Of a DNA stretch of 35,928 nucleotides, positions 1,794 to 25,757 are shown piece after piece. Every line of letters starts with the position of its first letter. Position 1 is the first letter of the stretch. Source of the DNA: Haloarculaceae archaeon. GTDB taxonomy: Archaea > Halobacteriota > Halobacteria > Halobacteriales > Haloarculaceae. Under the pieces are notes generated by a model, which was not told where the DNA came from, made no database searches, and saw nothing but the letters and a program-made list of their open reading frames with translations. The stretch is from contig SKTU01000083.1 in the NCBI GenBank assembly GCA_007122455.1, positions 1-35,928 on the forward strand, given 5' to 3'. The position numbers and the translations under genes were made by a program.

Positions 1794-2383
1794 ACCGAAC
1801 CCGGGTGAGTATCGGACGCGATTCGTCGGTGGACCAGCCCGAGCTCGTCGGATACGTTCACGACGAGGACGCCCAGCCGACTGTTATCGGTGACGGGGCG
1901 ACGATTCGAGCCGGAACGATCGTCTACACGGACGTCGAGATCGGCTCCGGATTCACCACCGGACACGGTGCACTGATCCGAGAGGAGACGACCATCGGCG
2001 ACGACGTCGTCGTCGGAAGTAACGTCGTCATCGACGGCCGGACAACGATCGGATCGCACGTGAGCCTCCAGACCGGCGTCTACATCCCCACCGAAACGAC
2101 GATCGGGAACAACGTGTTCGTCGGTCCCCGGGCCGTCCTCACCAACGATCCGTATCCGGTTCGTCAGGACGTCTCCCTCGAGGGACCGACGATCGAATCG
2201 GGGGTATCGATCGGTGCGAACGCGACGCTCCTCCCCGGCGTCACCGTCGGGGAGGGGGCGTTCGTCGCGGCCGGCGCGGTCGTCACGGACGACGTTCCGC
2301 CGGACACGCTCGCCGTCGGATCGCCGGCGGAACACCGGCCGCTACCCGACGAACTTCGCGAGCGGAACACGCTTCAAGCATGA
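1790..2383 (+). CDS. Left-handed beta-helix N-acetyltransferase (WbpD-like)
   Basis: A 197-residue acyltransferase made almost entirely of hexapeptide repeats ([LIV]-G-x4; for example TIGDDV, TIGSHV, TIGNNV, SIGANA, TVGEGA) that form a trimeric left-handed beta-helix. The TNDPYPVR segment matches the active-site loop region of the WbpD/WlbB group, and the C-terminal GSPAEHRP resembles the family's GxPAK end. WbpD-type enzymes use acetyl-CoA to acetylate the 3-amino group of UDP-2-acetamido-3-amino-glucuronate; WbpD is about 191 residues. GTG 1790 is chosen because GAGGTGA (1779-1785), a strong match to the 16S 3' end, precedes it by 4 nt. The string GTGAACCGAAC also occurs 32 nt upstream at 1758, but there it is in another frame. 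The 3' end overlaps the next gene (ATGA). Confidence 0.88.
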   Translation: MNRTRVSIGRDSSVDQPELVGYVHDEDAQPTVIGDGATIRAGTIVYTDVEIGSGFTTGHGALIREETTIGDDVVVGSNVVIDGRTTIGSHVSLQTGVYIPTETTIGNNVFVGPRAVLTNDPYPVRQDVSLEGPTIESGVSIGANATLLPGVTVGEGAFVAAGAVVTDDVPPDTLAVGSPAEHRPLPDELRERNTLQA

Positions 2384-3720
2384 CTTCAGAGATAATCGAC
2401 GAAACGGCAAGCGCGGACAGTATCGATCGACGACGGGACTCCGAGGTACTCTGTATCGTCGGACTCGGCTACGTCGGCCTCCCGCTGGCGACGACGTTCG
2501 ACGAGGCGGGATACGACGTCATCGGCTACGACGTCGACGAGTCGTTGATCGAATCGCTACGGCGCGACGAGGACCCGACGAACGAGATCGGCGGCGATCG
2601 ACTTGCCGAGCTGGAGGTCGAGTTCGTTCCCGATCCGGTAGATATCGAACGGGCCGATTACGTCTTCGTCACCGTCCCGACGCCCCTCGACAGTTCCCAG
2701 AACCCCGAACTCGAGTTCGTCAGAAGCGCCGCGAGAACTATCGGCGAGCATCTCTCGGAGGGAACGACCGTGGTGCTGGAATCGACGGTTTATCCCGGCG
2801 TGACGCGGAACGTCCTCCAGCCGACCCTCGCCGAGGCGTCCGGTCTCACCCCTGGCGAGGAGTTCAACGTGGGCTACTCCCCGGAGCGGCTTTCGCCGGG
2901 TGACGGCGGTCGCGGAATCCGCGACGCCGTCAAGATCGTCAGCGGCGACTCCGAGTCGACGCTGGCGAATCTCTCACGAATATACGGATCGATAATCGAC
3001 GCCGGCGTCCACGAGGCCGCCTCCCTCGAGGTTGCCGAGGCGGCGAAGGTTCTCGAGAACGTTCAGCGCGACCTCAACATCGCACTGATGAACGAGGTCG
3101 CGATCATCTGTGAGAACCTGGACATCGACACCAAGGAGGTGATCGAGGCCGCCGGAACGAAGTGGAACTTCCACGAGTACTCGCCGGGACTCGTCGGGGG
3201 ACACTGTATCCCCGTCGACCCGCTGTATCTCGTTCACGGCTCCGAACGCGCGGGGTTCTCGCCGAAACTCATCCTCCAGGCTCGTGAGATCAACGAATAC
3301 ATGCCGACTCACGTCGCCGATCTCACGATACGGGGGCTGAACGACTGCGGGAAGGTGATCAAGGACACCCGACTGCTCGTTCTGGGGGCGGCCTACAAGC
3401 CGAACGTCGGGGACATTCGAACCTCCGAGGTGAAAACGGTGATTAGCGTGCTCGAACAGTACGGCGTCGACGCCGTCGTCTACGACCCGATCGCGGACGA
3501 CGAGGCGATCGCCGAATCCCTCGACGTCGAGACAGTCTCCGAGCCCGACTACGATGGCTGCGACGGGATCGTCCTCGCGACCCCACACGAGCAGTTCTAC
3601 TCGCTCGATTTCCCCGGCGCCGTTGAAGAGCTGGAGCCGGATCCGGTGTTCGTCGACGTGAAGGCCGTGATGGACGAGCAGGAACTGACCGAGGCCGGCT
3701 ACGAATACCGGTGTTTGTAA
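2380..3720 (+). CDS. UDP-N-acetylhexosamine 6-dehydrogenase (nucleotide sugar dehydrogenase, TviB/WbpO/WbpA type)
   Basis: A 446-residue NAD-dependent four-electron dehydrogenase that oxidises C6 of a UDP-sugar to the uronic acid. The N-terminal NAD site is CIVGLGYVGLPLA (about residues 25-37), followed by the TVPTP and ESTVYPG motifs. The central domain carries TKWNF and GLVGGHCIPVDP with the catalytic Cys, and the C-terminal UDP-binding domain has LGAAYKPNVGDIRTS. The TKWNF...PGLVGGHC context resembles TviB/WbpO enzymes acting on UDP-GlcNAc or UDP-GalNAc more than UDP-glucose dehydrogenases, but this cannot be settled by eye. ATG 2380 overlaps the acetyltransferase stop by 4 nt, so the two are translationally coupled. 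It would provide the first committed step for the preceding three enzymes. Confidence 0.92.
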   Translation: MTSEIIDETASADSIDRRRDSEVLCIVGLGYVGLPLATTFDEAGYDVIGYDVDESLIESLRRDEDPTNEIGGDRLAELEVEFVPDPVDIERADYVFVTVPTPLDSSQNPELEFVRSAARTIGEHLSEGTTVVLESTVYPGVTRNVLQPTLAEASGLTPGEEFNVGYSPERLSPGDGGRGIRDAVKIVSGDSESTLANLSRIYGSIIDAGVHEAASLEVAEAAKVLENVQRDLNIALMNEVAIICENLDIDTKEVIEAAGTKWNFHEYSPGLVGGHCIPVDPLYLVHGSERAGFSPKLILQAREINEYMPTHVADLTIRGLNDCGKVIKDTRLLVLGAAYKPNVGDIRTSEVKTVISVLEQYGVDAVVYDPIADDEAIAESLDVETVSEPDYDGCDGIVLATPHEQFYSLDFPGAVEELEPDPVFVDVKAVMDEQELTEAGYEYRCL

Positions 3721-3769
3721 CGATGGCTCGAACACGCGTCCGAATCCGATACTCTCGGAGAGTGATTCG

Positions 3770-4846
3770 ATGAGGGTGATCGTCACGATGCAGCGGCCGT
3801 CGCACGTCCACTTTTACCGGCACGCCATCGAGGCGATGGAGGCCGACGGGCACGACATTCACGTCTTCGCACGGGACGCGGAGGTCACGATTCACCTCCT
3901 CGAGTCCTACGGGATCGATCACGGGGTACTCGTCGACGCCCCGCCGTCCGGTCGGTCGCTGCGGAAACTCGCGACCATGCAGGCCACCTACGAGTCGAAG
4001 CTCCTGCTGCGCGCACGCGAGATTCAGCCCGACGTCATCACCGCGATCGGTGGCGTCGCGGCGTCACACGTCGCGAAACTCGTCGGTGCACGGAGCATCG
4101 TCTTCACCGACACGGAGCACGCGACGATGTCGAACAGGCTGGTCACGCCGTTCGCCGACGCCATCTGGACGCCCGACTGCTTCCACGAGGATCTGGGTCA
4201 AAAGCACGTCCGCTACCCGGGATATCACGAACTGGCGTATCTTCACCCGGAGCGATTCACTCCGGACCCCGACGCTCTCTCGACTGCGGATGCCGACTCG
4301 GAACGTCCGCTCGTGGTCCTGCGACTGACGGACTGGGACGCTCTCCACGACATCGGTGCGGCCGGATTCGACGATGCGACGGACGTCGTAGAGCGACTCG
4401 AAGGCTCCGGCGCGCAGGTTCGGATCACCTCCGAAGTCCCGCTTCCCGACGAACTCACCAATCGACAGGTGTCGATTCCTCCGGAGGAGATTCACGACCT
4501 CCTCGCACACGCCTCGCTCTATCTCGGAGAGGGGGCGACGATGGCCGCCGAGAGTGCCGTACTCGGCACCCCATCCCTCTACGTGAACACGCTTCGGATG
4601 GGGTACACGGACGAACTCGAGGCGCGGTACGAACTGCTGTACAACTTCCAGGGTGCGTTCCGTCACGAACACGCCGTCCGAACGGCGGAAACGCTTCTCG
4701 ACGACGAGGGGGAAAACGACTGGGCCGCCAGGCGTGAACGGCTGTTGGCGGACAAGACGGACACGACGGACGTCATTCTCGACGCCATCGGCATCGGCGA
4801 CGGCTCCAGTGCGGAGAGCAAACCGACAACGGTGACGGCGCCGTGA
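3770..4846 (+). CDS. DUF354 family protein (GT-B-like, putative glycosyltransferase)
   Basis: A 358-residue protein recognised as archaeal DUF354: MRVIVTMQRPSHVHFYR start, the HVFARD segment, the AIGGVAASHVAKLVG stretch, VFTDTEHAT, and C-terminal LYLGEGATMAAESAVLG. The last motif corresponds to the nucleotide-sugar-binding side of GT-B folds such as the UDP-GlcNAc 2-epimerase/MurG-like group. DUF354 genes commonly sit in archaeal surface-glycan clusters, but no activity is established from the sequence. ATG 3770 is preceded by GGAGAGTGA (3757-3765), a partial ribosome-binding site. The 3' end overlaps the next start as GTGA. It follows the dehydrogenase by 49 nt and is probably in the same operon. 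It could be a glycosyltransferase or an epimerase-like protein. Confidence 0.82.
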   Translation: MRVIVTMQRPSHVHFYRHAIEAMEADGHDIHVFARDAEVTIHLLESYGIDHGVLVDAPPSGRSLRKLATMQATYESKLLLRAREIQPDVITAIGGVAASHVAKLVGARSIVFTDTEHATMSNRLVTPFADAIWTPDCFHEDLGQKHVRYPGYHELAYLHPERFTPDPDALSTADADSERPLVVLRLTDWDALHDIGAAGFDDATDVVERLEGSGAQVRITSEVPLPDELTNRQVSIPPEEIHDLLAHASLYLGEGATMAAESAVLGTPSLYVNTLRMGYTDELEARYELLYNFQGAFRHEHAVRTAETLLDDEGENDWAARRERLLADKTDTTDVILDAIGIGDGSSAESKPTTVTAP

Positions 4847-5802
4847 CGGGGATCCGCGTCCTCCAGCTGACCTCCTCGATGGAGCCGTTCTTCCGCCAAC
4901 AGGTCGACGTCCTCGAAGAGCACGGGGTCGACTGCACGACTCTTCCCGTGCCGGGAACCGCCCGGGGCGACGAGTCGCGGAACGTCCGAAACTACGCGAA
5001 GTTCTACAGACGAACGATCGCCGAGTGTCGGAACGACTACGATCTCGTTCACGTGAACTACGGGCTCATCGGCCCGATCGGACTGGCTCAGCCGATCCGA
5101 CCGGTCGTGCTCACGCTGTGGGGATCCGAGGTGATGGGTTACTCCAGCCCCGTCGATCGGCTCTCTCGCTTCGCCGCCCGGCGGAGCGACGCCGTCATCG
5201 CCCCATCCGTGGCGGTCTCCGAGCGGCTCGACTGCTCCCATCGCGTCGTCCCCTTCGGCGTCGATCTCGATCTCTTCAAACCGATCGACCGGCGGGAGGC
5301 CCGGGAGTATCTGGGCTGGTCGCAGAACGACCGGATCGTCCTCTTCCCGTACGATCCCGGTCGGACGGTGAAGAACCACGCCCTCGCGCGAAGCGTCATC
5401 GACCGGACGAGCGTCAATGCGGAACTCAAAACGGTGAGCGGACTGCCGTACCACGAGATGCCGTACGTCATGAACGCGTGCGACGCGGTACTCGTGACGT
5501 CTCGACGGGAAAGCGGACCGATGGTGGTTCGGGAGGCCGCAGCCTGTAACGTCCCCGTCGTCTCGACCGACGTCGGCTTCGTCTCGGAGACGCTCGAGAA
5601 CGTCGAGAACAGCTACGTCACGGACGCCGAGTCGGAGCTCGTCGAGGCGGTCGACTCCGTACTCCGATCAGTGGGGCGTTCGAACGGCCGCGAGATCGTC
5701 GAGCAGTACGACACGGAACGTATGGGTTCCGAGCTCCTCTCGGTGTACGTCGACGCCCTCGACGGCGAGAGTTCGGATCCGCGCCGTGTCGAACCGAATT
5801 AA
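4843..5802 (+). CDS. Glycosyltransferase family 4 (GT-B)
   Basis: A 319-residue cytosolic GT-B glycosyltransferase. It has an N-terminal acceptor domain (HVNYGLIGPIG, LTLWGSEVMG) and a C-terminal donor domain with VPFGVDLDLFKP, the linker typical of GT4 enzymes. ACDAVLVTSRRESGPMVVRE follows, containing the E-x7-E type nucleotide-sugar-binding motif (ESGPMVVREA). The GTG start at 4843 overlaps the stop of the DUF354 gene, implying coupled translation. Donor and acceptor cannot be deduced; given the neighbours it may transfer the diacetamido uronic acid or a sugar next to it. A 372-nt intergenic region follows. Confidence 0.9.
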   Translation: MTGIRVLQLTSSMEPFFRQQVDVLEEHGVDCTTLPVPGTARGDESRNVRNYAKFYRRTIAECRNDYDLVHVNYGLIGPIGLAQPIRPVVLTLWGSEVMGYSSPVDRLSRFAARRSDAVIAPSVAVSERLDCSHRVVPFGVDLDLFKPIDRREAREYLGWSQNDRIVLFPYDPGRTVKNHALARSVIDRTSVNAELKTVSGLPYHEMPYVMNACDAVLVTSRRESGPMVVREAAACNVPVVSTDVGFVSETLENVENSYVTDAESELVEAVDSVLRSVGRSNGREIVEQYDTERMGSELLSVYVDALDGESSDPRRVEPN

Positions 5803-6174
5803 TCAGTCGACAATTCGATCCTCGGAGCGCTTCGTAACGCGGAGCGGCAGTGATCCCGAAACCGCCGGGGATTCGATCACGACGGGTTTCCGGCTCTCTC
5901 TCCGCCGTTCGACCTCACCTCGGGTTTAGGAACCTCGTAGCCGGACGTTTCTTCCCAGTTGCGTCGATTGGAATGTGCGGGGGTTTCGTCGACTGCTCCT
6001 TAGTTCGTGTATAGTAACAGTTCTTCCACGCGACCGATCTCGAAGGAGACGGTTGTGAGACCGTTGATAGACCATGATAGGAAACGCAAATACAGCGACG
6101 TCCGTCACCGAGCGATCGACTACTGTCAACGGCTGTGGAACTCGCGTTCGACCGCCCGTGAGGGGTGTCCGCTG
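5803..6174 (+). other. Intergenic region and putative long leader upstream of glmS
   Basis: 372 nt without a convincing gene. A weak TATA-like stretch (GTATAGTAAC, about 6008-6017) lies some 160 nt ahead of the glmS ATG, so any leader could be over 100 nt. An imperfect GAAACC...GGTTTC pair lies near 5869-5891. The glmS frame is open upstream to 6007, but that part has poor codon bias and would bury the catalytic N-terminal Cys. GAGGGGTG about 10 nt before ATG 6175 may act as a ribosome-binding site. Confidence 0.5.
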
Positions 6175-7986
6175 ATGTGTGGCATCATCGCCTGTATCGG
6201 CGTCGACGACGCCGGATGCAGGGTCGTCAGCGGTTTGGAGAACCTGGAGTATCGGGGATACGACTCCGCAGGGGTCGCCGCACAGTCCGACGACGGACTG
6301 GTCGTTCGCAAACAGAGCGGACAGATCAGCGACCTGAAGGAGTCGTTCGTCGACGAGATACCGTCCGGAACGCTGAGCATCGGACACACCCGGTGGAGTA
6401 CACACGGCCCGCCGACGGACGAAAACGCTCACCCGCACACGAGCACATCCGGACGCGTCGCCGTCGTACACAACGGTATCATTTCGAACTACCAGAAGCT
6501 CCGGGAGCGATGCAACCGGCTCGGTTACGAGTTCGAGAGCGACACCGACACCGAGGTCATCCCGCACCTGATCGAACACCGCCTCAGTGGGGGGATGGAT
6601 GCCGAGCGAGCGATCAAGGACACGATCGCCGAGCTCGAAGGGAGCTACGCGATCACCGTCGCGATCGAGGGATACGACGAGTTGTTCGCCGCCCGAAAAG
6701 GATCCCCGCTGGTGATCGGGGTCGGCGAGGACGCGAACTACCTGGCGAGCGACGTTCCGGCGTTCCTCGAGTTCACGGACCGGGTCGTCTACCTCGAGGA
6801 CGGGGACGTCGTTTCGGTTTCGGCGACGGAGCACACGTTCCTCGACACCGGTGGCGATTCGGCGAGCCGTCCCGTCGAAACCGTCGACTGGAGTTCCGAG
6901 GACACCGGCAAGGGCGAGTACGACCACTACATGCTGAAGGAGATCGACAACCAGCCGAGTTCGCTGGCGAGTACGATCGACGGACGGATCGACACGGATT
7001 CCGACTCCATCGAGTTCGAGTCGTTCCCCGAGGGGGAGTTCACCGACGTCGATCGGATTCACCTCGTCGCGTGTGGAACGTCGTACCACGCTGCACTGTA
7101 CGGTGGACGACTGCTGAACAGGGCCGGCATTCCGACCCAGGCGTTCCGAGCCAGCGAGTACGACGAGACGTATCCGATCTCGTCGGATACCCTGGTGGTG
7201 GGCGTGACACAGAGCGGTGAGACGGCGGATACGCTCGCTGCGCTCCGGACGGCCAAGCGCGAGGGTGCGGAGACGTTCGCCGTCACGAACGTGGTCGGCT
7301 CCACCGCAGCCCGAGAGGCCGACACGGCGGTGTATATCCGAGCCGGCCCCGAGATCGGCGTCGCCGCGACCAAGACGTTTTCCTCGCAGGTGGTGACGCT
7401 CGCGCTCCTCACCGAGATGTTCGCGGCGGAGATCCCCGACGCGACTCCTCGCGACGATCTTCCGGAGTTCCTGGACGCGCTCTCCGAGTTACCGTCTCAG
7501 ATCGACGAGATACTGCGGACGTCACACGTCGACGACATCTGCTCCCGATATCTCAATCGGGAGAAATACCTGTTCATCGGGCACAGCCACGAACACCCGG
7601 TCGCGCTCGAAGGGGCGTTGAAGTTCAAGGAGATCACGTACAAACACGCCGAGGGATACGCATCGGGACAGCTCAAACACGGACCACTCGCGCTCGTCAC
7701 GCCCGGCGTTCCCGTCTTCACGATTCTGGGTGCCGACGACGAGAAGACGCGAATCAACGCCGAGGAGGCTCACGCTCGAGGTGCTGACGTCGTCGCAGTG
7801 ACGTGCGAATCCGACGTGAACCCGAAGTTCGCCGATTCGGTGCTGGAGATCCCCGAGACGCATCCGGACCTCATTGGATTGCTCGCCAACGTCCAGCTAC
7901 AGCTCGTCGCCTACCACACGGCTCGGCTCCTCGATCGATCGATCGACAAGCCACGAAACCTCGCCAAGAGCGTCACCGTCGAGTGA
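6175..7986 (+). CDS. glmS: Glutamine-fructose-6-phosphate aminotransferase (isomerizing)
   Basis: A 603-residue enzyme converting fructose-6-phosphate plus glutamine to glucosamine-6-phosphate, the entry step to UDP-GlcNAc. The start at ATG 6175 gives MCGIIACIG, placing the nucleophilic Cys second, as required after Met removal for the class II glutaminase. RGYDSAGVA, HTRWSTHGPPT and HPHTS complete the glutaminase site. The two SIS domains carry ACGTSYHAALYGG, TQSGETADTLAALR, GVAATKTFSSQV and the C-terminal KPRNLAKSVTVE tail that closes the active site. Length is normal for GlmS. Placement in a glycan cluster suggests a dedicated supply of amino sugar. The next gene starts 4 nt after its stop. 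Confidence 0.97.
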   Translation: MCGIIACIGVDDAGCRVVSGLENLEYRGYDSAGVAAQSDDGLVVRKQSGQISDLKESFVDEIPSGTLSIGHTRWSTHGPPTDENAHPHTSTSGRVAVVHNGIISNYQKLRERCNRLGYEFESDTDTEVIPHLIEHRLSGGMDAERAIKDTIAELEGSYAITVAIEGYDELFAARKGSPLVIGVGEDANYLASDVPAFLEFTDRVVYLEDGDVVSVSATEHTFLDTGGDSASRPVETVDWSSEDTGKGEYDHYMLKEIDNQPSSLASTIDGRIDTDSDSIEFESFPEGEFTDVDRIHLVACGTSYHAALYGGRLLNRAGIPTQAFRASEYDETYPISSDTLVVGVTQSGETADTLAALRTAKREGAETFAVTNVVGSTAAREADTAVYIRAGPEIGVAATKTFSSQVVTLALLTEMFAAEIPDATPRDDLPEFLDALSELPSQIDEILRTSHVDDICSRYLNREKYLFIGHSHEHPVALEGALKFKEITYKHAEGYASGQLKHGPLALVTPGVPVFTILGADDEKTRINAEEAHARGADVVAVTCESDVNPKFADSVLEIPETHPDLIGLLANVQLQLVAYHTARLLDRSIDKPRNLAKSVTVE

Positions 7987-7990
7987 TCCG

Positions 7991-9727
7991 ATGACGCTTT
8001 CAACCTCTACCGTGCGGAACACCGCGGAATCCCCGCCGCGGATGAACCGCGAGCTGTTCGGGCTCTTCGGATCCAAAGCGGAGCTCGCGTCGCACTGTTC
8101 GCTCTCGGAGTTCGACGCGGTCGTCGCGGGATCGTCCGTCGCCGTCGGGATACGGGACGACACCATGGATCTTCCCGCTCGCAGCAGCGTTCACGAGGGA
8201 TCGGACGGACACTGCGTGATCCTGGGCGAGGCGTGGATGGATCGGAGTCGTCCGGAGAGTGCGGCCGAGCAGCTCTACCAACGATTCGTCACCGAGGGAT
8301 CCGAGGCGTTCGAGGGGATCTACGGCTCCTATCTCGTGGTCCTCGAACACGACGACGACGTCTGGATCGTCCCCGATCTCATCCGGTCCTGGGAGTGCTT
8401 CTACACCGACGACAGCGGCGAACGCGTCTTCGGAACGGACGCAGCGAGGGTCGCCCGGACGATCGATCGGCCGACACTGAACGAGCGCGCGGCAAACGAA
8501 CTGTTCCACTTCGGCGTCGTGTTCGGAACTGGGACGCTGCTCGCGGAGCTGCACCGGCAACCGTTCGATCGAGCACTCGACGCCGAGACGTCTCGGGATC
8601 TCGAGCGCTTCGTCTACAGGACCGCGTCGTCTGATCGCGACTACGCGGCCGATCTCGCGGAGCGACTCGAGGCGGTCGTCGGGGAGCGAATAGATTACCC
8701 CGATCCGAAGGGGGCGCTCACCAGCGCGGGATACGACTCCCGGTTCCTGCTCGCGACGATCCCGGATCTGGACACCTGCTACACGCTCGGGCACCCGACG
8801 ACGCCGGAGATAGAGACTGCCCGCGACGTGGCCACCCAGTACGGCCACGACCACGAGCGGTTGCCCGTTACACCCGACTATCTCGATCCGAGCCCCTCGA
8901 TCGTTCAGTACACGAACGGGATTCGGGAATCGTTACACATCCACCACCGCGGGAACGAGTCCGCACTCGACGTGGTGACGATGTACCACGGGCTGTTGCT
9001 GGACACGGTACTGCGGGACTTCTATCTCCCCGGTCGCGAGATCGATCTGTTCGGCCACCCCCTCCCGCTCCCCGGGCTCGAGTCGGATCCCGACTTCTAT
9101 CAGTTCTATCGGGACCGACTCGACGTCTACCGGAACGGTGGCCAGCTACTCGGAAAGGCCGACGATCTCCCCGAGAGCACGATCGAGGAGTTCGGAGAAC
9201 GGACCGTCAGCTCCGCGATCGAGCGATGCCGACCCCGGACGGACTCCGTCTACAACGCGATGGCGATGCTCGGGGTAAAGCTCACCCCCGCGCTCCCGTT
9301 TCGGACCCACCTGGCCGATAACTTCGTCGAGAGTCTGTTTGCGACCGATCCCCGACTCGTCGAGTGGCACCTCACGACGCCACCCGAACACCGGAATTCC
9401 CGCACGTTCCAGCGGGCCATAGAGCACGTCGACGGGGAGATATTCCGTCACCGACCCCCCGACCGACCGTACACCTCCTACACGTTGAACCAGATCAGCG
9501 GCTTTCTCAGGCGGAACGTTCCCGGAGTCCGATCGCCCGGAACCGCGTGGCCCGACCGGAAACGGATCTACAACGACAACGACATGGACGCTCGGTTGTT
9601 CCCCGACTCCGAGTGGGTTCACGATCATCCCCCGCGAGTCAAGCTTCGGATCAACGACGCGCTCACGTGGCTCGACCTCGCGACCGACCGGACGTACACC
9701 CCCGACGATATTCTCCGGCGAACGTGA
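7991..9727 (+). CDS. Asparagine-synthetase-like protein without the glutaminase cysteine
   Basis: A 578-residue protein with the two-domain outline of asparagine synthetase. The N-terminal Ntn-like domain should start MCGIFG, but here the matching motif is ELFGLFG with Phe where the Cys nucleophile belongs, and it lies some 20 residues inside the protein. An ATP-pyrophosphatase domain follows, with the PP-loop variant TSAGYDSRFLLA near residue 245. Proteins of this kind (beta-lactam synthetase, lasso-peptide cyclase) adenylate a carboxylate and join it to an amine instead of glutamine-derived ammonia. Start could be ATG 7991 (4 nt after glmS) or ATG 8042; the first is preferred for operon spacing. 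Substrate unknown; a carboxylate of the cluster's uronic acid is a plausible target. Confidence 0.8.
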   Translation: MTLSTSTVRNTAESPPRMNRELFGLFGSKAELASHCSLSEFDAVVAGSSVAVGIRDDTMDLPARSSVHEGSDGHCVILGEAWMDRSRPESAAEQLYQRFVTEGSEAFEGIYGSYLVVLEHDDDVWIVPDLIRSWECFYTDDSGERVFGTDAARVARTIDRPTLNERAANELFHFGVVFGTGTLLAELHRQPFDRALDAETSRDLERFVYRTASSDRDYAADLAERLEAVVGERIDYPDPKGALTSAGYDSRFLLATIPDLDTCYTLGHPTTPEIETARDVATQYGHDHERLPVTPDYLDPSPSIVQYTNGIRESLHIHHRGNESALDVVTMYHGLLLDTVLRDFYLPGREIDLFGHPLPLPGLESDPDFYQFYRDRLDVYRNGGQLLGKADDLPESTIEEFGERTVSSAIERCRPRTDSVYNAMAMLGVKLTPALPFRTHLADNFVESLFATDPRLVEWHLTTPPEHRNSRTFQRAIEHVDGEIFRHRPPDRPYTSYTLNQISGFLRRNVPGVRSPGTAWPDRKRIYNDNDMDARLFPDSEWVHDHPPRVKLRINDALTWLDLATDRTYTPDDILRRT

Positions 9728-9988: not shown

Positions 9989-10888
9989 TCATCCGAAGAG
10001 GCCACCATCGTCATCGTCCTCTTCGTCTTCTTCTTCGTCTTCTTCTTCCTCTTCGTCGTCGTCATCGTCTTCCTCTTCCTCTTCCTCTTCGTCGTCGTCA
10101 TTGTCTTCTTCTTCTTCTTCTCGATCGTTATCATCGTCCTCCCAGTCATCGTCGCTGTCATCGTCTTCGTCTTCTTCTTCTCGATCGTTATCGTCGTCCT
10201 CCCAGTCACTATCGTCCTCTTCTTCCTCCTCTTCGTACAGTTCGATCACTCGGTCTTCGTGATCGTCGCCGACCGAGACCACGATCAGGTAGAGATCGGG
10301 ATCGAAGTCACTGGTATCCAGCTCGTAGACGTAACTGGACGTTCCACCGGCTTCGAGGGTCGCTTCGTACGACGTGAGTTCCTCGTCGTCGAACGAGAGT
10401 GTGAGTTCCTCGGACCCTTCTGCATCACCACGGTTCTCCACCTCGAATTCGATCGCCACCGTCTCGCCGACTTCCGCCTCGTCGGGCGCATGGAGTCCGG
10501 TGACGACGATGTCGGCCTCCTCGTCTTCGGGCGTCTCCTCCGGTGTCTCGGTGGGTGTGTCCTCAGGTGTTTCGGTGGGCGTCTCCTCAGGTGTCTCAGT
10601 AGGGGTGTCCTCAGGTGTTTCGGTGGGGGTGTCAGTCGGCGTCTCGGTTGGCGTCTCCTCCGGTGTCTCGGTGGGTGTGTCCTCTTCCGGTGTCGGCGTT
10701 TCCTCTCCTCCATCACCTGCCTCATCCGCCCCACCGATCCCGAGGGTCGAGGGCCCCACGACACCGGCGACGACGAAGCCCGTTACGAAGAGGACCACTC
10801 CAGCAACCAGTAGAAGCTGGTGAAGCTGTCCGGTGCCGACGCTTCCGCCGCCTGTGTCGTGCGGGCCGCTCGAAGAAGAACCGTTCAT
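9989..10888 (-). CDS. Membrane-anchored surface protein: TPTETPE stalk, CARDB-like domain, poly-acidic tail
   Basis: A 299-residue protein with a short polar N-terminus, one hydrophobic segment (about residues 22-50), a Thr/Pro/Glu-rich stalk of repeated TPTETPE units (about 62-125), then a beta-rich domain. In the last, VEVENRGDAEG-like wording (EFEVENRGDAEGS) and the surrounding TVAIEFEV/YVYELDTS strands resemble CARDB adhesion-type domains. The final 75 residues are almost only Asp and Glu, with two copies of WEDDDNDREEE, and end in GGLFG. The stalk threonines are candidate O-glycosylation sites (inference). Orientation is probably N-terminal anchor with the rest outside. It is oriented against the flanking genes and has its own TATA box. 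Confidence 0.82.
   Translation of the reverse strand: MNGSSSSGPHDTGGGSVGTGQLHQLLLVAGVVLFVTGFVVAGVVGPSTLGIGGADEAGDGGEETPTPEEDTPTETPEETPTETPTDTPTETPEDTPTETPEETPTETPEDTPTETPEETPEDEEADIVVTGLHAPDEAEVGETVAIEFEVENRGDAEGSEELTLSFDDEELTSYEATLEAGGTSSYVYELDTSDFDPDLYLIVVSVGDDHEDRVIELYEEEEEEDDSDWEDDDNDREEEDEDDDSDDDWEDDDNDREEEEEDNDDDEEEEEEEDDDDDEEEEEDEEEDEEDDDDGGLFG
10111..10208 (-). repeat. Duplicated 60-bp unit inside the acidic tail
   Basis: Two near-identical 38-bp blocks (10111-10148 and 10171-10208) differ at one base and are spaced exactly 60 bp, i.e. 20 codons, encoding WEDDDNDREEE twice. They sit in a long C/T-rich tract of the + strand (about 10011-10240), consistent with growth by in-frame slippage. 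Confidence 0.85.
10528..10692 (-). repeat. TPTETPE-coding minisatellite
   Basis: Short tandem repeats encoding T-P-T-E-T-P-E/D units. Blocks such as GGTGTCTCGGTGGGTGTGTC recur within the tract on the + strand. The repeat number is likely to vary between strains. Confidence 0.85.
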
Positions 10889-11125: not shown

Positions 11126-11134
11126 TATAATAAA
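11126..11134 (+). promoter_or_regulatory. TATA box (TATAATAAA) for the first propeller lipoprotein
   Basis: Centred about 32 nt ahead of ATG 11162 within an AT-rich stretch (11088-11135), which favours that ATG with a very short leader. Confidence 0.6.
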
Positions 11135-11161
11135 GGATCTGTCACAGTATCGTTGACCTAT

Positions 11162-12274
11162 ATGTCGCAGCAATCGAGGCGGAGACCAGTGCTTGCATCC
11201 CTCGGCGCCACCGTGGTCGCGGGGTTGAGCGGCTGTGTCGGCTCGGTCGGAGAACAGATCGGTACCGAGGACGATTCAGAGGAGCCGACCGAGACGCCGA
11301 CGGAGGAGCCGACAGAGACTCCGGAGCCCGAACCGGACGAATCGATACACAGCGGTGAGAGTATTCCCACCTACCCGTACGCGGACACCGGTACGGAGCC
11401 GTTGAACCCGCGCCCCGACGACGCGGCCGACAATCCGGTTCTGACGGCCGACGACATCGACGACTACGATGCGTCCTTCGTCGCCGATCCGACCCTGTAC
11501 ATCGAGGACGACGAGTGGCACATGTTCTTCGAGGTGTCGGCGGACGGTAGGGGTCGGATCGCCCACGCCGTCAGCGACGATGCGGGGGAGAGCTGGGAGT
11601 ACGATCAGGTCGTGTTGAACCTGCGGCACCACGTCTCCGGCCCGTACGTTTTCAAATGGGACGGCGAGTACTACATGACCACCCAGGCCAATCCCCGCAC
11701 GCGTCCAGTCATGCTGTTCAAGGCGAACGTCTTTCCACACGACTGGTACCGTGCTGCCGAGCTGTACGATCCCGATCAATACGACCACGGCGTCACCGAC
11801 CACGCGCTCTTCCGGTGGGACGATACGTGGTGGAACATCGCCGGCGACGAACGGCGCCACACCTATCTCTACTACAGTGAGGAACTCGAGGCCAGCGACT
11901 GGCAACCGCACGAGGAGAACCCGGTCGTCGAGGATCGCCCGGCTGCATCGCGTCCGGGCGGTCGGCCGATCGTCCGCGACGACGACGTACTGGCGTTCTT
12001 CCAGTCGCAGGTCGGCGGCTTCGGTATGGAGGTCAACGCCTACCGGATCACGGAACTGACGCCGTCGGCCTACGCGGACACGGAACATCCCGCGTCCCCG
12101 ATTCTCACCGGCACCGAGACGCTCGATCAACACGACGAACCGACGTGGAACTCCTATCGGATGCACCGATACGATCCGTGGTACCTCGGTGACGGCGAGG
12201 GATGGCGGGCCGTCGTCGACGGCGACGACGGGAACGACGACTGGAAGATCGGAGTGTACCACGTCCGTGAGTAG
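11162..12274 (+). CDS. Tat lipoprotein with GH43-like (GINT1_N-like) beta-propeller, copy 1
   Basis: A 370-residue exported protein. SRRRPVLASLG is a twin-arginine signal and LSGC a lipobox, giving a lipid-anchored surface protein. An acidic Thr/Pro linker (PTETPTEEPTETPEPEP) follows, then a propeller domain. DPTLYIEDDEWHMFFE, GRIAHAVSDDAGESW, GPYVFKWDGEYYMTTQA, SDWQPHEENPVVEDR and GWRAVVDGD are the repeating strands of the GH43-related fold found at the N-terminus of plant glucosamine inositolphosphorylceramide transferases and in many bacterial glycan loci. The fold suggests binding or processing of a carbohydrate; activity is not known. ATG 11162 is chosen over TTG 11153 from the TATA position. 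A paralogue follows directly. Confidence 0.82.
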   Translation: MSQQSRRRPVLASLGATVVAGLSGCVGSVGEQIGTEDDSEEPTETPTEEPTETPEPEPDESIHSGESIPTYPYADTGTEPLNPRPDDAADNPVLTADDIDDYDASFVADPTLYIEDDEWHMFFEVSADGRGRIAHAVSDDAGESWEYDQVVLNLRHHVSGPYVFKWDGEYYMTTQANPRTRPVMLFKANVFPHDWYRAAELYDPDQYDHGVTDHALFRWDDTWWNIAGDERRHTYLYYSEELEASDWQPHEENPVVEDRPAASRPGGRPIVRDDDVLAFFQSQVGGFGMEVNAYRITELTPSAYADTEHPASPILTGTETLDQHDEPTWNSYRMHRYDPWYLGDGEGWRAVVDGDDGNDDWKIGVYHVRE

Positions 12275-12304
12275 CTTCCGATCCCGTCTTTTGAAGTTGC
12301 TATA

Positions 12305-12320
12305 CGTACGCTCTCGTACG
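12305..12320. other. Inverted repeat CGTACG-CTCT-CGTACG between the paralogues
   Basis: A perfect 6-bp stem about 30 nt after the stop of the first lipoprotein gene. It could end that transcript or be an operator for the second; each arm is also self-complementary. Confidence 0.35.
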
Positions 12321-12375
12321 ACCGCAGCACAGTTTCGACCGTTGCAGCACGGTTCAGATCACTCGAGACAGTTAC

Positions 12376-12390
12376 TTTACTAATAATAAT
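12376..12390 (+). promoter_or_regulatory. TATA box (TTTACTAATAATAAT) that sets the start of the second paralogue
   Basis: The box abuts an in-frame ATG at 12392, too close to be translated from a downstream transcription start, but lies about 32 nt before ATG 12416. This argues that 12416 is the real start of a nearly leaderless mRNA. Confidence 0.6.
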
Positions 12391-12415
12391 CATGGCACTA
12401 CGGCAAAACCGAGAC

Positions 12416-13555
12416 ATGGAGACGAGTCGAAAGCGGCGACAGTTCCTCGCATCGATTGGTATAACCGGTCTCGCCGGTCTCGCCGGCTGTACCGATCGGA
12501 TTACGGGGAACGGCGACAACCCCCCTAGCGGTGACGACGAACCGAATCACGACGACGATCCGGAAACGGAAGACGAGGAGCCGGACGACGAGGACGAGTA
12601 TTTCTACTCCGGTGAGACGATCCCGCCGTTCCCCTACGAGGGCGTGACGATAGACCCCCTCGAAACCCAACCCGATCCGGAGGTGTCGAACCCCGTCTTC
12701 ACGGCCGACAGCGTCGATCAGGACGACTTCGACGACGAGTTGCAGTTCGCTGCAGACCCCTACATGTTCGTCGAGGAGGACGAGTGGCACATGTTCGTCG
12801 AGGTCGTCGAGAGTGGTCACGGCGGACGGATCGTCCACGCGGAAAGCGACGATCGCGGCGTGACGTGGGATTACACCGGCATCGTCCTCGAGGAAGAGTG
12901 GCATCTCTCGTTCCCGTTCGTATTTAAATGGGAAGGCGACTACTACATGACGACGCAGGCGAACCCGAGTAGTCGTCCCCCGCGGCTCTACAAGGCCAAC
13001 TCGTTCCCCGGGGAGTGGTACACCGTCGTCGACGGCTACTACGACCAAAACGAGTACGATCACAGGATTAACGACCACGCTGTCTTCCACTGGGACGGCA
13101 CCTGGTGGGACATCGCCTGTCACGACAACGAGGACACCTACATTTATTACAACGATCAGCTGGAACACGGCGGTTGGCAACCACACGAGGAGAACCCGGT
13201 CGTCGAGGACAGGCCGTTCGCAGCTCGTCCCGGCGGACGCCCGCTCGTGTTCGAGGACCGCATCTTCGTTCCCTTCCAGCAGACCGAGGAGCTCTATGGA
13301 GAGACGATTCAGGGCTACTGGATCACTGACCTCACGACGGATAGCTACGAGGACGAACACATCGGTACCGTTCTCCAGGGGACGGACCGGTACACGGACG
13401 ACGACGAACCCGCCTGGAACTCGCTCCGGATGCACCACTACGACGCGTGGTATCTCGGTGACGAGGAGGACGGATGGCGGGCCGTCGTCGACGGCGACAA
13501 AATCGAAACGTCGGGGGCAGATTGGACCGTCGGAATGTACCGAACCCAGAGCTGA
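12416..13555 (+). CDS. Tat lipoprotein with GH43-like (GINT1_N-like) beta-propeller, copy 2
   Basis: A 379-residue paralogue of the preceding gene. RKRRQFLASIG is a canonical Tat motif and LAGC the lipobox; an Asp/Glu-rich linker (about 30 residues) replaces the Thr/Pro linker of copy 1. The propeller conserves the same landmarks: DPYMFVEEDEWHMFVE, RIVHAESDDRGVTW, FPFVFKWEGDYYMTTQA, WQPHEENPVVEDR, RPGGRP, DEPAWNSLRMHHYDAWYLGD and GWRAVVDGD. The two copies are clearly homologous over their full mature length but differ in linker and loops, so the duplication is not recent. Function unknown; surface carbohydrate binding or hydrolysis is inferred from the fold and location. Confidence 0.82.
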   Translation: METSRKRRQFLASIGITGLAGLAGCTDRITGNGDNPPSGDDEPNHDDDPETEDEEPDDEDEYFYSGETIPPFPYEGVTIDPLETQPDPEVSNPVFTADSVDQDDFDDELQFAADPYMFVEEDEWHMFVEVVESGHGGRIVHAESDDRGVTWDYTGIVLEEEWHLSFPFVFKWEGDYYMTTQANPSSRPPRLYKANSFPGEWYTVVDGYYDQNEYDHRINDHAVFHWDGTWWDIACHDNEDTYIYYNDQLEHGGWQPHEENPVVEDRPFAARPGGRPLVFEDRIFVPFQQTEELYGETIQGYWITDLTTDSYEDEHIGTVLQGTDRYTDDDEPAWNSLRMHHYDAWYLGDEEDGWRAVVDGDKIETSGADWTVGMYRTQS

Positions 13556-13827: not shown

Positions 13828-14238
13828 ATGAAAGAAAACGACCTACTCAGTCGACGACGCCTCATCGAACTCACTGGGGCAGCTAGTATCGTTGGCATCG
13901 CGGGATGTTCCGACCCTGGCGACCCGGACGAACCAGGCGAAGAAGACGACGACTTCGACGACGATCCGGCGGACGACGATCCGGTGGACGACGATCCGGC
14001 GGACGACGATCCGGCGGACGATGACGATGACGACTTCGATGAGGACGACGACGAGGAGGACGACGACTTCGACGACGACGAAGATGACGACTACGACGAG
14101 GACGACGATCCCGCGGACGACGACGAAGATGACGACTTCGATGAAGACGACGACGAGGACGCCGAAGACGACGATCCCGCGGACGATGACGCCGAAGACG
14201 ACGACTTCGACGAAGACGACGACGAGGACGAAGAGTAG
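13828..14238 (+). CDS. Poly-acidic Tat lipoprotein
   Basis: A 136-residue protein. MKENDLLSRRRLIELTG is a Tat motif and GIAGC the lipobox near residue 28; everything after it is Asp, Glu and a few Pro, Ala, Phe, Gly and Tyr, arranged in short units such as DDDPAD and DDDFDED. No globular domain is visible. Lipid-anchored at the outer face, it would be an extremely negatively charged brush that could bind Ca2+, Mg2+ or cationic partners (inference). Upstream TTG 13816 is less likely than ATG 13828. The gene sits after two other Tat lipoproteins and is followed by a T-run terminator. Confidence 0.82.
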   Translation: MKENDLLSRRRLIELTGAASIVGIAGCSDPGDPDEPGEEDDDFDDDPADDDPVDDDPADDDPADDDDDDFDEDDDEEDDDFDDDEDDDYDEDDDPADDDEDDDFDEDDDEDAEDDDPADDDAEDDDFDEDDDEDEE

Positions 14239-14336: not shown

Positions 14337-15590
14337 TCAGGCAGATACGGCAGTATTTCGGTATAGCGCCAGTAGTTCCTCGAGAACGGTTTCCGGGCTG
14401 AACTGGTCGAGCTGATCGGGGATCTCGCGCCGGTACGCCCCGTAGTCGTTCCGGAGCTGATGGACGTGCTCGGCGAGGTCACGCTCGTTTCCGGGCTCGA
14501 AAACCTCACCCGCTGCTCCGATGATGTAGCTCATGCTCCCGATGTCCGAACTGACGACCGGAGTCCGACTCGCGAGCGCTTCGAGTATCACGCGACCGAA
14601 CGGTTCGTCGATGACTCCCGGATAGACGAAGACGTCCGAGTCGTGATACGCCGACGGGAGCTCTTCGTGATCGACGTAGCCGAGCCACGAGATCCGATCC
14701 GCGACGTCGAGGTCCGCCGCGAGCGTTCGCAGCGCCGATTCGTACGGCCCGCTGCCGGCGATCCGGAGTTCGACGTCGAAGGGCAGTTCTTCCAGATGCG
14801 GGAGGGACCGAATGAGTACGTCGACCCCCTTGATCTGTTTTAAGGCACCGACGTAGAGGAGCGAGAGGGTTTTCCCGTCCGAAATCGAGAACGCGTCGGC
14901 TCCGTCACCGTTCGGGGGCGTGAACCGGTCCTCGTAGAAGTGCGGTACGACCGTGATTCGGTCCGCGGGAAAGCCGAGCTCCACGTAGTCGTCGCAGAGG
15001 TGTGGCGACAGCGCGTGGTAGGCCGTAACCCGATTACGGTTTTCGAACGACTGTTTGACGAGCGGCCCGCGGCCGGCGGAGAGATACGCCGATTTGAGTT
15101 CGTTCGTGACGCCCTGTCGGCGGCCGAGCGCGGTCGATGCGATGCAACTCGAACATTTCGCCACTCCCGGCCCGCTGCACTTCTCCGTTCCACGATACCT
15201 GAGATCGGCCTTCGGACAGACCGGAAGATACGAGTTGAGCGTCACGAGCGTCTCGGTCTCGAGTTCGGCGAGTGTCGAGATGAACGCCGACGAGTAGGAG
15301 TGGACCAAATCGTGGGAGTTCAACTCCTCTCGCCTCCCCTCGAGCGCCTGCTGTTTCCGCTGGATCGGATGGGGAAGATAGGACAATTCGTCGGAGATGA
15401 CGTACTCTACCCTGTCGTCCGCCGGAAGGTCGGCTCGCCCCGCGCTCCGCTGACTCGCGACGTACACCGTGAGATCGTGATACTTCGAGAGGTGTTCGAT
15501 GAGTAGTGTCGACGTGTGTGTGGCCCCGGATCCGCCAGTACCTGGGCACTCGACGGGGACGAAGCCGACGTCGAGACGGTGCTCTACCAT
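14337..15590 (-). CDS. Glycosyltransferase family 4 with internal cysteine cluster
   Basis: A 417-residue GT-B enzyme. The N-terminal domain starts LDVGFVPVECPGTGGSGATH. The C-terminal donor domain shows LLYVGALKQIKGVDVLIRSL, LRIAGSGPYESAL, WLGYVDHEELPSAYHDSDVF and DEPFGRVILEALASRTPVV with the E-x7-E nucleotide-sugar motif. An insertion at about residues 125-160 carries four Cys (CP...KCSG...KCSSC), a possible metal-binding knuckle seen in some haloarchaeal GT4 proteins. ATG 15590 is preferred over in-frame ATG 15605 because a TATA box is centred about 31 nt upstream of 15590. Donor and acceptor unknown. It is a single gene, convergent with the lipoprotein gene. Confidence 0.9.
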   Translation of the reverse strand: MVEHRLDVGFVPVECPGTGGSGATHTSTLLIEHLSKYHDLTVYVASQRSAGRADLPADDRVEYVISDELSYLPHPIQRKQQALEGRREELNSHDLVHSYSSAFISTLAELETETLVTLNSYLPVCPKADLRYRGTEKCSGPGVAKCSSCIASTALGRRQGVTNELKSAYLSAGRGPLVKQSFENRNRVTAYHALSPHLCDDYVELGFPADRITVVPHFYEDRFTPPNGDGADAFSISDGKTLSLLYVGALKQIKGVDVLIRSLPHLEELPFDVELRIAGSGPYESALRTLAADLDVADRISWLGYVDHEELPSAYHDSDVFVYPGVIDEPFGRVILEALASRTPVVSSDIGSMSYIIGAAGEVFEPGNERDLAEHVHQLRNDYGAYRREIPDQLDQFSPETVLEELLALYRNTAVSA

Positions 15591-15614
15591 TACAGTACCC
15601 CACATGCCGCCCGC

Positions 15615-15666: not shown

Positions 15667-16770
15667 TCAGGCGCGTTCCAGTTCGACGCAGAAGACCGAT
15701 CCCTCGGGGTCGTTGTCTTCGATCCGTATACGTCCCCCGTACTGCGTCACGAGGCGATCGACGAGCGTGAGTCCGACGCCGATCCCGCTGCTTTCGACAC
15801 TCTGGATCCCCTCCTCGAAGATGCGATCCCGCTGCCGTCTCGGGATCCCCGGTCCGTTGTCCGCGACCCGCACCGTCACCGTGTCTCCCTCAACCGTCCC
15901 GTCGATGTGCACTTTCGCCTCCGATTTGTCGTTGAAGAAGACGCCGTTACTGATCAGATTCCCGAACACCGACGCCAGGAGACGGTTCCCCCGAACGTCC
16001 GCATCGGGAACGTCACCCATCGTGATTTCGGAGCTCCGATAGAGGCTCCGCGCTTTCTCGACCTCCCGCTGGAGAATCGCGTTCAGATCGGTCGGCGACA
16101 GCTCCGGCGTCTCCTCGGCTGTCATCGAATCGAGCGCGTCGCCGATCGTTCGTGTCAGCTGCAGAATGTGGTTCCCGGATTGGATGATCTCCTCGACGAT
16201 GTCCTGCCCTCGGGGATCGACGTAGTCGGTGAGCTCCTCCGTTCGTCCGACGATGAGGCTAATGTCGTTTTTGATGTCGTGTCTCGTGAGCTGGTTCAGC
16301 ATCGCCAGCTGTTCGGATCGCCGTCGGAGTTCCTCTTCGGTTTGCTTCCGCTCGATCGCGTACTGGATCGCCATCGCGAGGGTCTGTGACGTGATGTTGT
16401 CCTTAACGAGGTAGTCCTGTGCGCCCTCCGATACGGCTTTCATCCCGAGCTGCTGTTCCGGCATTCCGGTGAGTACGACCACGGGAAGATCCGGCAACTC
16501 CGCGAGCGCCCGAGTGACCGTCTCGATCCCGTCGCTGTCTGGTAGCTGAAGGTCGAGTAGTACGGCGTCGGGCTGTAGCTCGGGGGCCCGATCCAGTCCG
16601 GACTGCAACGTGTCCTCGTGTGTAACCTCGACCTCGTCGGTTCGCTCTTCTCCCGGTCCGTGGGCGAGAAGCGAATTGAGCTTCGCCTGGACGAGGAGTT
16701 CCTGAACCAGGTTTGCGTCGTGGGGATTGTCCTCGATCAGGAGTATCGTGAGTGTTGTGTTGTCGTTCAT
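15667..16770 (-). CDS. Receiver-histidine kinase (REC-HisKA-HATPase)
   Basis: A 367-residue cytosolic two-component protein. The N-terminal receiver has acidic-pocket residues (LLIEDN), the phospho-accepting Asp73 (LLDLQLPDSDG) and Lys123 (YLVKDN). A coiled-coil linker (about 138-158) leads to the kinase H-box with His164 (LTRHDIKND), then the N-box (NLISNGVFFN), G1 (DNGPGIP) and G2 (GIGVGLTLV) of the ATPase. No membrane segment or PAS domain is present, so input comes through the receiver; it may relay phosphate in a multi-step pathway. It lies 60 nt downstream of the HxlR-REC-HalX gene on the same strand, so the two probably form one operon and a phosphorelay. Confidence 0.93.
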   Translation of the reverse strand: MNDNTTLTILLIEDNPHDANLVQELLVQAKLNSLLAHGPGEERTDEVEVTHEDTLQSGLDRAPELQPDAVLLDLQLPDSDGIETVTRALAELPDLPVVVLTGMPEQQLGMKAVSEGAQDYLVKDNITSQTLAMAIQYAIERKQTEEELRRRSEQLAMLNQLTRHDIKNDISLIVGRTEELTDYVDPRGQDIVEEIIQSGNHILQLTRTIGDALDSMTAEETPELSPTDLNAILQREVEKARSLYRSSEITMGDVPDADVRGNRLLASVFGNLISNGVFFNDKSEAKVHIDGTVEGDTVTVRVADNGPGIPRRQRDRIFEEGIQSVESSGIGVGLTLVDRLVTQYGGRIRIEDNDPEGSVFCVELERA

Positions 16771-16830: not shown

Positions 16831-17709
16831 TCACTCGTCGTCTTGTAACGATGCGAGGAGCCGATCGTCGTTTTCGATTCCCTCCGACGGATCGTCGATC
16901 GCCGCCTCGAGTTCCTCGAGGCGTTCGATCAGCCGCGTGTACTCGTCGCTCTCGGCGAGTTCGGACGCCGTCTTCTCGGCGTCCAGCAATGCCCGTTTCG
17001 CGTTCAAAACCACGTACTCTCGCGTCTTTTCGCCGTAGGTGTCTCGCGTGAGCACGTCAGTGAGTACGTCCCTGAGCTCGTCTTTGAGGGTGGGCTTCAT
17101 CACGTACGCGTCGAACGCCATGTCGACGACGTCGAAGTCCGGGTTGACGGCCGAGAGCATGACGACCCGACAGTCGAGGTTCAGCCCACGGATTCGCTCG
17201 AGGATCTCGTCACCGGAGAGCCCCGGCATCCGTCGGTCCAACAGGACGACGTCGACGTCCTCGTCGAGCATCCGGAGGCCGTCGCTTCCGTTGTACGCCC
17301 GCTTGACCTGATAGTCGTCCTCGAGCCACCCTGCGTGCATCTTCACGAGTCGCGGATCGTTGTCGATGATGAGAACGGTCGGATCGGGATCGGGATCGAG
17401 ATACTCGTCGCCCCACTCCGCCAGAGAACTGAGCGCCACGTGGAGCCCCCGGCCGTCTTTCGTCAGCTCGTACTCGACGCGCTTCGGCGACTCGCTGACG
17501 ACGGTGCGGCTCACGAGATCGTTCTCGACCAGGTTATCGAGACTGTCGGTCAACACCTTCGCGGAGATCTCCCCGACGCGGTCCTTCAGCTCGGTGAAAC
17601 GCAGTGGCTCCTCCCTGTGGAGCCGGTGGATGATGATCGGATGCCACTTCTTCGACACCAGATCGACGGCACTGACTAACCTCTCGAGTTCTTCCTCTTC
17701 GTCGTTCAC
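16831..17709 (-). CDS. HxlR winged-helix + receiver + HalX fusion regulator
   Basis: A 292-residue regulator. Residues 10-103 form an HxlR-type winged helix (KKWHPIIIHRLHREEPLRF, with the recognition region SAKVLTDSLDNL). Residues 111-220 are a receiver with Asp158 (VLLDRRMPGLSGDE) and Lys205 (YVMKP). Residues 225-292 are a HalX C-terminal domain with a helical Glu/Lys-rich segment. Most haloarchaeal HalX proteins are REC-HalX without a DNA-binding part; here a DNA-binding domain is joined in front, so phosphorylation could directly govern DNA binding. Start is GTG 17709. Likely partner is the REC-kinase immediately downstream. Targets unknown; neighbouring surface-polysaccharide genes are candidates. 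Confidence 0.9.
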   Translation of the reverse strand: MNDEEEELERLVSAVDLVSKKWHPIIIHRLHREEPLRFTELKDRVGEISAKVLTDSLDNLVENDLVSRTVVSESPKRVEYELTKDGRGLHVALSSLAEWGDEYLDPDPDPTVLIIDNDPRLVKMHAGWLEDDYQVKRAYNGSDGLRMLDEDVDVVLLDRRMPGLSGDEILERIRGLNLDCRVVMLSAVNPDFDVVDMAFDAYVMKPTLKDELRDVLTDVLTRDTYGEKTREYVVLNAKRALLDAEKTASELAESDEYTRLIERLEELEAAIDDPSEGIENDDRLLASLQDDE

Positions 17710-25685: not shown

Positions 25686-25757
25686 CGCCGTGATCACGAA
25701 CGGACCTCGGAGGCGCACAGTGCCCGAAACTGTAGCTCTCAATACATCTCGACTGCC

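Follow-up and report, generated by a model that had tools for sequence, protein, structure and literature searches.

Two Adjacent Lipoprotein Genes

The window, meaning the whole stretch of 35,928 nucleotides that was analyzed, is one contig of a fragmented Haloarculaceae genome (2.93 Mb in 149 contigs). On its forward strand it carries two adjacent genes, P1 (11162-12274, 370 aa) and P2 (12416-13555, 379 aa), encoding paralogous Tat lipoproteins, each with a five-bladed propeller of the GINT1_N type. An alternative start at 12392 would make P2 eight residues longer. Over their whole length the two proteins are identical at 183 of 382 positions (48%), and their low-complexity linkers differ, being rich in Thr, Glu, and Pro in P1 versus Asp and Glu in P2. 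An earlier note on this DNA, which described two neighboring paralogous reading frames with unlike linkers, is thereby borne out. Both paralogues are under purifying selection (dN 0.25 and 0.24, dS 1.43 and 1.58, the latter near saturation). A foreign origin was considered and rejected on composition, GC3 being 0.82 and 0.79 versus 0.77-0.84 in five genes of the cluster, and P2 found nothing when searched against viral contigs.

In both proteins the N terminus carries a twin-arginine segment followed by a short hydrophobic run and a lipobox whose Cys is residue 25 (SRRRPVLASLGATVVAGLSGC at 11162-11236 in P1 and KRRQFLASIGITGLAGLAGC at 12416-12490 in P2, both on the forward strand), and by sequence and motif rule both are Tat lipoproteins. 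The signals are the same as those of haloarchaeal Tat lipoproteins generally, with no difference seen. According to PMC2945643, 78-87% of the lipoproteins predicted in haloarchaea use Tat, and the anchoring of P1 and P2 is therefore ordinary. The signal motifs, together with this usual route as given there, support the claim that the two are anchored at the outer face, and this is the location that we infer for them.

AT-rich boxes are found about 27-40 bases upstream of both starts, on the forward strand: TATAATAAAG at 11126-11135 for P1 and, assuming that P2 starts at 12416, TTTACTAATAATAA at 12376-12389 for P2. Both are putative TATA boxes. The stretch from -40 to -20 has an A+T content of 70% for P1 and 80% for P2; among all 20-mers of the window 0.7% reach 75% and 0.3% reach 80%. 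Judged by base composition, it is plausible that each gene has its own TATA-like box. The hairpins that were said to flank the genes turned out to be short inverted repeats of 7-15 bases, mostly 7, and they were rejected as terminators, since one terminator-like site was found versus 2.4 expected, which is at or below chance.

The domain shared by P1 (residues 90-355, 123.6 bits) and P2 (residues 90-361, 161.4 bits) is by curated score (cut-off 27 bits) the same as PF24793, GINT1_N, the N-terminal domain of plant glucosamine inositolphosphorylceramide transferase 1. In plant GINT1 this domain precedes a GT64 glycosyltransferase domain, while the 370 and 379 residues of P1 and P2 hold GINT1_N as their single domain behind the Tat lipoprotein signal. 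No other Pfam family was found in either protein up to an E-value of 10, the cut-off of PF04616 (GH43) was not reached, and no NCBIfam model scored above its cut-off. When the single proteins were searched against PDB sequences, P1 gave matches at E 0.06 or worse and P2 gave none.

The Surrounding Gene Cluster

Upstream of the pair, at 2380-9727 on the forward strand, are genes for a UDP-sugar dehydrogenase, a DUF354 protein, a GT4 glycosyltransferase, a GlmS-like protein, and an asparagine-synthase-like protein. P2 is followed by a gene for a third Tat lipoprotein of 136 aa (13828-14238, forward), which after its lipobox consists nearly throughout of Asp/Glu/Pro repeats, and downstream of the three lipoproteins another GT4 glycosyltransferase is encoded on the reverse strand (14337-15605). 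Further along are an archaeal GlmU-type sugar nucleotidyltransferase and a flippase (24495-27293, forward), a PGA_cap (CapA-like) protein (27304-28677, reverse), and an exported Tat beta-helix protein (28746-30038, reverse). The window also encodes a GT2 glycosyltransferase, an ATP-grasp protein, regulators, a Gfo/Idh oxidoreductase that is nearest to UDP-GlcNAc 3-dehydrogenase at a score below the model cut-off, and a deacetylase-like protein whose score misses the Pfam cut-off. These neighbors support the view that P1 and P2 are surrounded by a polysaccharide cluster. Its UDP-sugar dehydrogenase implies acidic sugars, and the gene content suggests that the product is an acidic, amino-sugar-containing surface polysaccharide.

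Two other genes of the window were also noted. Just upstream of P1, on the reverse strand (9989-10888), is the gene for a CARDB-like membrane protein with Thr/Pro/Glu repeats and a hyperacidic tail. A reverse-strand gene at 16831-17709 combines an HxlR-type DNA-binding domain, a response-regulator receiver, and HalX in one protein, and adjoins a receiver/histidine-kinase hybrid (15667-16770).

Fold of the Propeller

The propellers comprise residues 76-370 of P1 (11387-12271, forward) and residues 77-379 of P2 (12644-13552, forward); the structural alignments span model residues 75-370 and 76-379. The AlphaFold models were built from 22-row alignments of the window proteins and proteins of related loci. 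The P1 model has an overall pLDDT of 82.2, mostly above 90 over residues 80-370, and the P2 model one of 79.6, with the propeller mostly above 85; the linkers are disordered in both. DSSP strands form five blades, all of which are modeled in P1 and in P2. Foldseek ranks a GH130 enzyme first (E 2.5e-9). With VIA-align, where rows within 1 Z were taken as tied, P1 reaches a Z of 25.5 to GH130 phosphorylases, 23-25 to GH62, 21-22 to GH43, 23.9 to GH159 (7zei), and 22.6 to the Flavonifractor GalNAc deacetylase. The scores of P2 are much the same, and five-bladed GH130, GH62, and GH43 chains fall at Z 21-26 to the two models. A profile search of PDB sequences gave GH130 as the best match (E 9.2e-5), followed by GH32 and GH117 (E about 5e-4). 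The five-bladed propeller that had been postulated, and that any other structure would have spoken against, is thus upheld by confident models at a Z of about 25 to chains of the GH130/GH62/GH43 kind. The function of P1 and P2 is not named by the fold alone.

Putative Pocket Residues

When it comes to the residues of the putative active site, the GINT1_N set (P1 numbers) consists of Asp109, Glu124, His157, Asp213, Arg264, Arg268, His335, and Asp353. In the model most of them sit where an innermost strand begins, and they would line one shared pocket. Asp109 starts blade I and Asp213 blade III, with a commonest spacing of 99-108 residues, and 50-53 residues past Asp213 there is an RPxGR motif where GH43 has a glutamate. 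The GH43 reference consisted of 13 haloarchaeal proteins (16 frames minus L185, L189, and L192, which look like wrong reading frames), whose conserved Asp, Asp, and Glu are spaced 106-142 and 45-58 residues apart.

The comparison of acids with GH43 that the earlier note had called for was made by spacing and motif, and its outcome is divided. Two of the three acids, Asp109 and Asp213, are kept, while the blade IV Glu, which GH43 employs as its acid and carries in an EAP or EGP motif, gives way to the invariant RPxGR. Judged in this way, P1 and P2 lack the complete set of three catalytic acids, on blades I, III, and IV, of GH43, a family in one clan with GH62, GH32, and GH68. The likeness to the GH43 and GH62 arabinofuranosidases and xylosidases is one of fold (Z 21-25) and of two aspartates, on blades I and III, at similar spacing. 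An hhalign comparison of the domain with the 16 haloarchaeal GH43 frames was weak and blade-shifted (probability 33%), and was for this reason not used for residue mapping.

The closest fold is that of the GH130 beta-mannoside phosphorylases (9fj8, 5b0p), at a Z of about 25 over about 258 residues. The Asp of their EDPR motif, which we take to be the catalytic residue, is by alignment absent from GINT1_N: the aligned residue is Gly in P1 and Phe in P2, and among the relatives it is Phe, Tyr, Gly, or Asn, with Phe or Tyr in most. No GH130 match over the cut-off was found in 116 haloarchaeal genomes. In the GH117 anhydro-galactosidases the blade III Asp aligns with that of GINT1_N in a short profile match. 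PMC11574756 describes for GH117 an Asp as base, a His/Asp pair as acid, and a Glu. GINT1_N has the invariant His335 and Asp353, a candidate counterpart of that pair, with the His placed on blade V by the model.

The pocket set is conserved throughout the family, together with Gln281 as a ninth residue. Among the non-exported rows each of the nine is present in 47-49 of 47-49 (Arg268 in 48 of 49); each is also present in 16 of 16 rows of the exported clade B described below (Gln281 in 15 of 16), in 5 of 5 bacterial rows, and in 6-7 of 7 rows of the clade of the window proteins. There are some exceptions. Asp109 is Asn in one broken Halalkalicoccus copy, and in the P1 orthologue of the nearest relative (L112) Glu124 is replaced by Thr and Gln281 by Arg, both otherwise near-invariant. 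A deeper group of seven rows has His157 in only two. Three fusions, whose partner is presumably formyltransferase-type, have Thr for Arg268 and are unalignable at His335; a Pfam search of these three for a formyltransferase domain found none. An incomplete GH43 set combined with another, near-invariant set of charged residues would be compatible either with unusual catalysis or with tight binding of acidic sugars. For unusual catalysis the His/Asp acid of GH117 (PMC11574756) is a precedent.

Relatives in Other Genomes

GINT1_N is found in seven of 60 near relatives and in 57 of 391 genomes of the class, and the two sets combined give 60 genomes with a match. A phylum-wide alignment-based search hit 49 of 294 genomes, with most matches confined to signal and linker, and was left out of the counts. 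The same tandem pair did not recur in the other genomes: two complete side-by-side copies are present in the window only (1/60 genomes with a match), and a conserved tandem was thus rejected.

The tree contains 80 rows, with 10 fragments or formyl-type rows left out. Among named genomes, the nearest relative to carry the genes is one of Natronomonas, obtained from a metagenome. Each of the two window proteins groups with a single protein of this relative (support 100/99 each), and these four form a clade of five with a Halalkalicoccus lipoprotein (100/100). A recent duplication is rejected by this pairing, and the gene was therefore duplicated before the two Natronomonas-like genomes diverged. 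The orthologues in the relative lie on separate contigs with other flanking genes. The P1 orthologue (L112) has a beta-helix gene directly upstream, a relative of the Tat beta-helix protein of the window, and a GMP-synthase-like gene (the latter assigned by eye), and the P2 orthologue has a ferredoxin-like neighbor (by eye). The idea that the two lipoproteins act together as a pair is weak, since the orthologues are separated in this way, though both paralogues are old. Two of the three Halalkalicoccus copies are broken by frameshifts or stops (L109, 8831-9962; L102, 8640-9796), so the function must be dispensable there; the Halalkalicoccus label rests on one named contig (L131) and on the shared genus label of the other.

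A second exported clade, clade B, comprises 16 rows (100/100) from Haloarcula and Halocatena-like genomes; in five of them, marked C in the tree, the label rule missed a Tat signal without a lipobox. One member (L052) is fused to LamG. Other members, from Halocatena-like genomes, are Tat-exported fusions of H-lectin with GINT1_N (L096, L123, and weakly L130). Four of the five bacterial relatives, which are secreted, carry F5/8, LamG, or Golvesin_C modules, and PKD was also seen. The bacterial fusions (L132, L134, L135, L136) come from Thermodesulfovibrio, Omnitrophota, and Syntrophobacterales. Contrary to what the earlier note had implied, export is thus not unusual for GINT1_N, being found in the clade of the window, in a second haloarchaeal clade, and in secreted bacterial forms.

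The window genome has a third GINT1_N copy on another contig (L047, 18083-19150, reverse strand, at the end of G000:C20). It has no export signal and groups among the 46 non-exported rows of the tree. This copy and many non-exported relatives have an N-terminal segment of the AWxxGxxxxH type, which is absent from the exported forms.

Neighborhoods of the Family

The loci were searched with profiles built from genes of the window, with 40 random 19-kb stretches from the same contigs as controls, and neighborhoods were counted for loci over 15 kb. A glycosyltransferase or flippase is found near GINT1_N in 50 of 69 loci versus 5 of the 40 random stretches (p = 7e-10, a value that ignores kinship, related genomes being non-independent samples); with one locus per genome the count is 43/58. 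The link to polysaccharide loci, the absence of which would have spoken against the reading of the earlier note, thus holds family-wide, but it is carried by the non-exported members (39/46). For the other classes the figures are 4/11 in clade B, 3/3 in the formyl-type, 4/5 in the deep group, and 0/1 for L075. Outside the window, the exported clade of P1 and P2 has no glycosyltransferase or flippase within about 9 kb in any of three loci. That exported relatives mostly lie outside glycosyltransferase clusters is the strongest result against P1 and P2 being simply part of the synthesis machine.

An exported polysaccharide deacetylase is encoded near seven exported loci (L063, L109, L069, L077, L082, L124, L127), versus none of the 78 other target loci searched and one of the 40 controls. 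These seven fall into two syntenic sets, one in Halalkalicoccus and one in Halocatena and its kin, and therefore represent about two independent events. CapA-like (PGA_cap) relatives adjoin exported propellers in two loci (L052 and L117).

Possible Roles of P1 and P2

On balance P1 and P2 appear to be lipid-anchored, outer-face carbohydrate-active propellers that act on the cell's own glycan after its export, and we hold this account with moderate confidence. Tat would export the folded protein and the lipobox would anchor the domain outside the membrane. A linker of 50-odd residues, flexible as judged from its sequence, would carry the propeller outside, where it would engage the acidic, amino-sugar polysaccharide that the cluster, to judge by the neighboring genes, makes and flips. 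The glycans on which the two propellers act would then probably be those of the cell's own surface. Because the pocket residues are common to the non-exported relatives, the chemistry or the ligand is probably the same whether the domain works inside or outside the membrane. Trimming or other modification of the glycan by a non-standard set of residues is narrowly favored over binding only. The account as a whole is supported by the fusion of exported relatives to sugar-binding modules (LamG, H-lectin, F5/8, Golvesin_C), the family-wide link to polysaccharide loci, the exported deacetylases beside exported loci, the conserved pocket residues, and purifying selection on both paralogues. Several findings count against it: the glycosyltransferase link is carried by the non-exported members, the blade IV Glu and, by alignment, the GH130 Asp appear to be absent, the P1 orthologue in L112 has lost two pocket residues, and two of the three Halalkalicoccus copies are broken.

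The propellers might instead be non-catalytic anchors that tether the exported polysaccharide to the membrane, with the pocket as a lectin-like site in which the two invariant arginines bind carboxylate or phosphate. This is rather unlikely, as is its extension to the non-exported members, which beside glycosyltransferases would hold an acidic acceptor likewise. An invariant RPxGR in place of the third GH43 acid, a UDP-sugar dehydrogenase in the cluster and hence acidic sugars, and anchoring by lipid and linker would all suit a binding role. The two pocket residues lost from the P1 orthologue in L112 (Glu124 and Gln281) fit binding better than catalysis for that copy. However, eight charged residues conserved in archaea and bacteria, exported or not, exceed what a plain binding module commonly requires, and exported relatives already have separate binding modules.

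Enzymatic alternatives draw on the same fold. As it is common to GH130, GH62, and GH43 enzymes, P1 and P2 could be anchored hydrolases that degrade foreign polysaccharide and lie near the cell's own synthesis genes by chance. The LamG, H-lectin, and F5/8 fusions, as in many secreted hydrolases, and the position of most exported loci outside glycosyltransferase clusters are in line with this, but the window copies are within a biosynthetic cluster, their pocket is that of non-exported members at biosynthetic loci, and the standard catalytic triad is incomplete, all of which make such a role improbable. Still more doubtful is a carbohydrate de-N-acetylase or another enzyme removing esters or amides, a possibility that overlaps with the account preferred here, being one form of glycan modification. 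It is prompted by the five-bladed Flavonifractor GalNAc deacetylase (6n1b/6n1a, Z 22.3-22.6 over 265-273 residues), which P1 and P2 resemble in fold, and amino-sugar neighbor genes and exported deacetylases agree with it. GH130, GH62, and GH43 chains score equal or higher, however, and with a deacetylase already encoded alongside, another would be superfluous.

Returning to propellers that act on the cell's own glycan, a wider reading can be put forward tentatively, and we think it is more apt to be wrong than right: GINT1_N may be an unrecognized family of carbohydrate-active enzymes with its own pocket on a GH43/GH130 propeller. Its substrates would be acidic or amino-sugar glycans, handled within the cell near glycosyltransferases and flippases, and also outside it by lipoproteins and secreted multidomain proteins.

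Implications

In the literature searched, which was mainly open-access, no paper on archaeal or exported GINT1_N was found, and nothing useful turned up on lipoproteins in haloarchaeal exopolysaccharide clusters. Should the pocket be catalytic, a domain so far named only after a plant lipid glycosyltransferase would become an enzyme family of archaea, bacteria, and plants that works on both sides of the membrane, and haloarchaea would offer small single-domain versions for tests. If the wider reading is true, plant GINT1, a sphingolipid glycosyltransferase, would contain a second enzyme in its N-terminal half rather than a mere spacer. For haloarchaeal biofilm and capsule biology, a catalytic pocket would mean that polysaccharide clusters, mostly interpreted as synthesis and flipping only, have a further step at the outer face.
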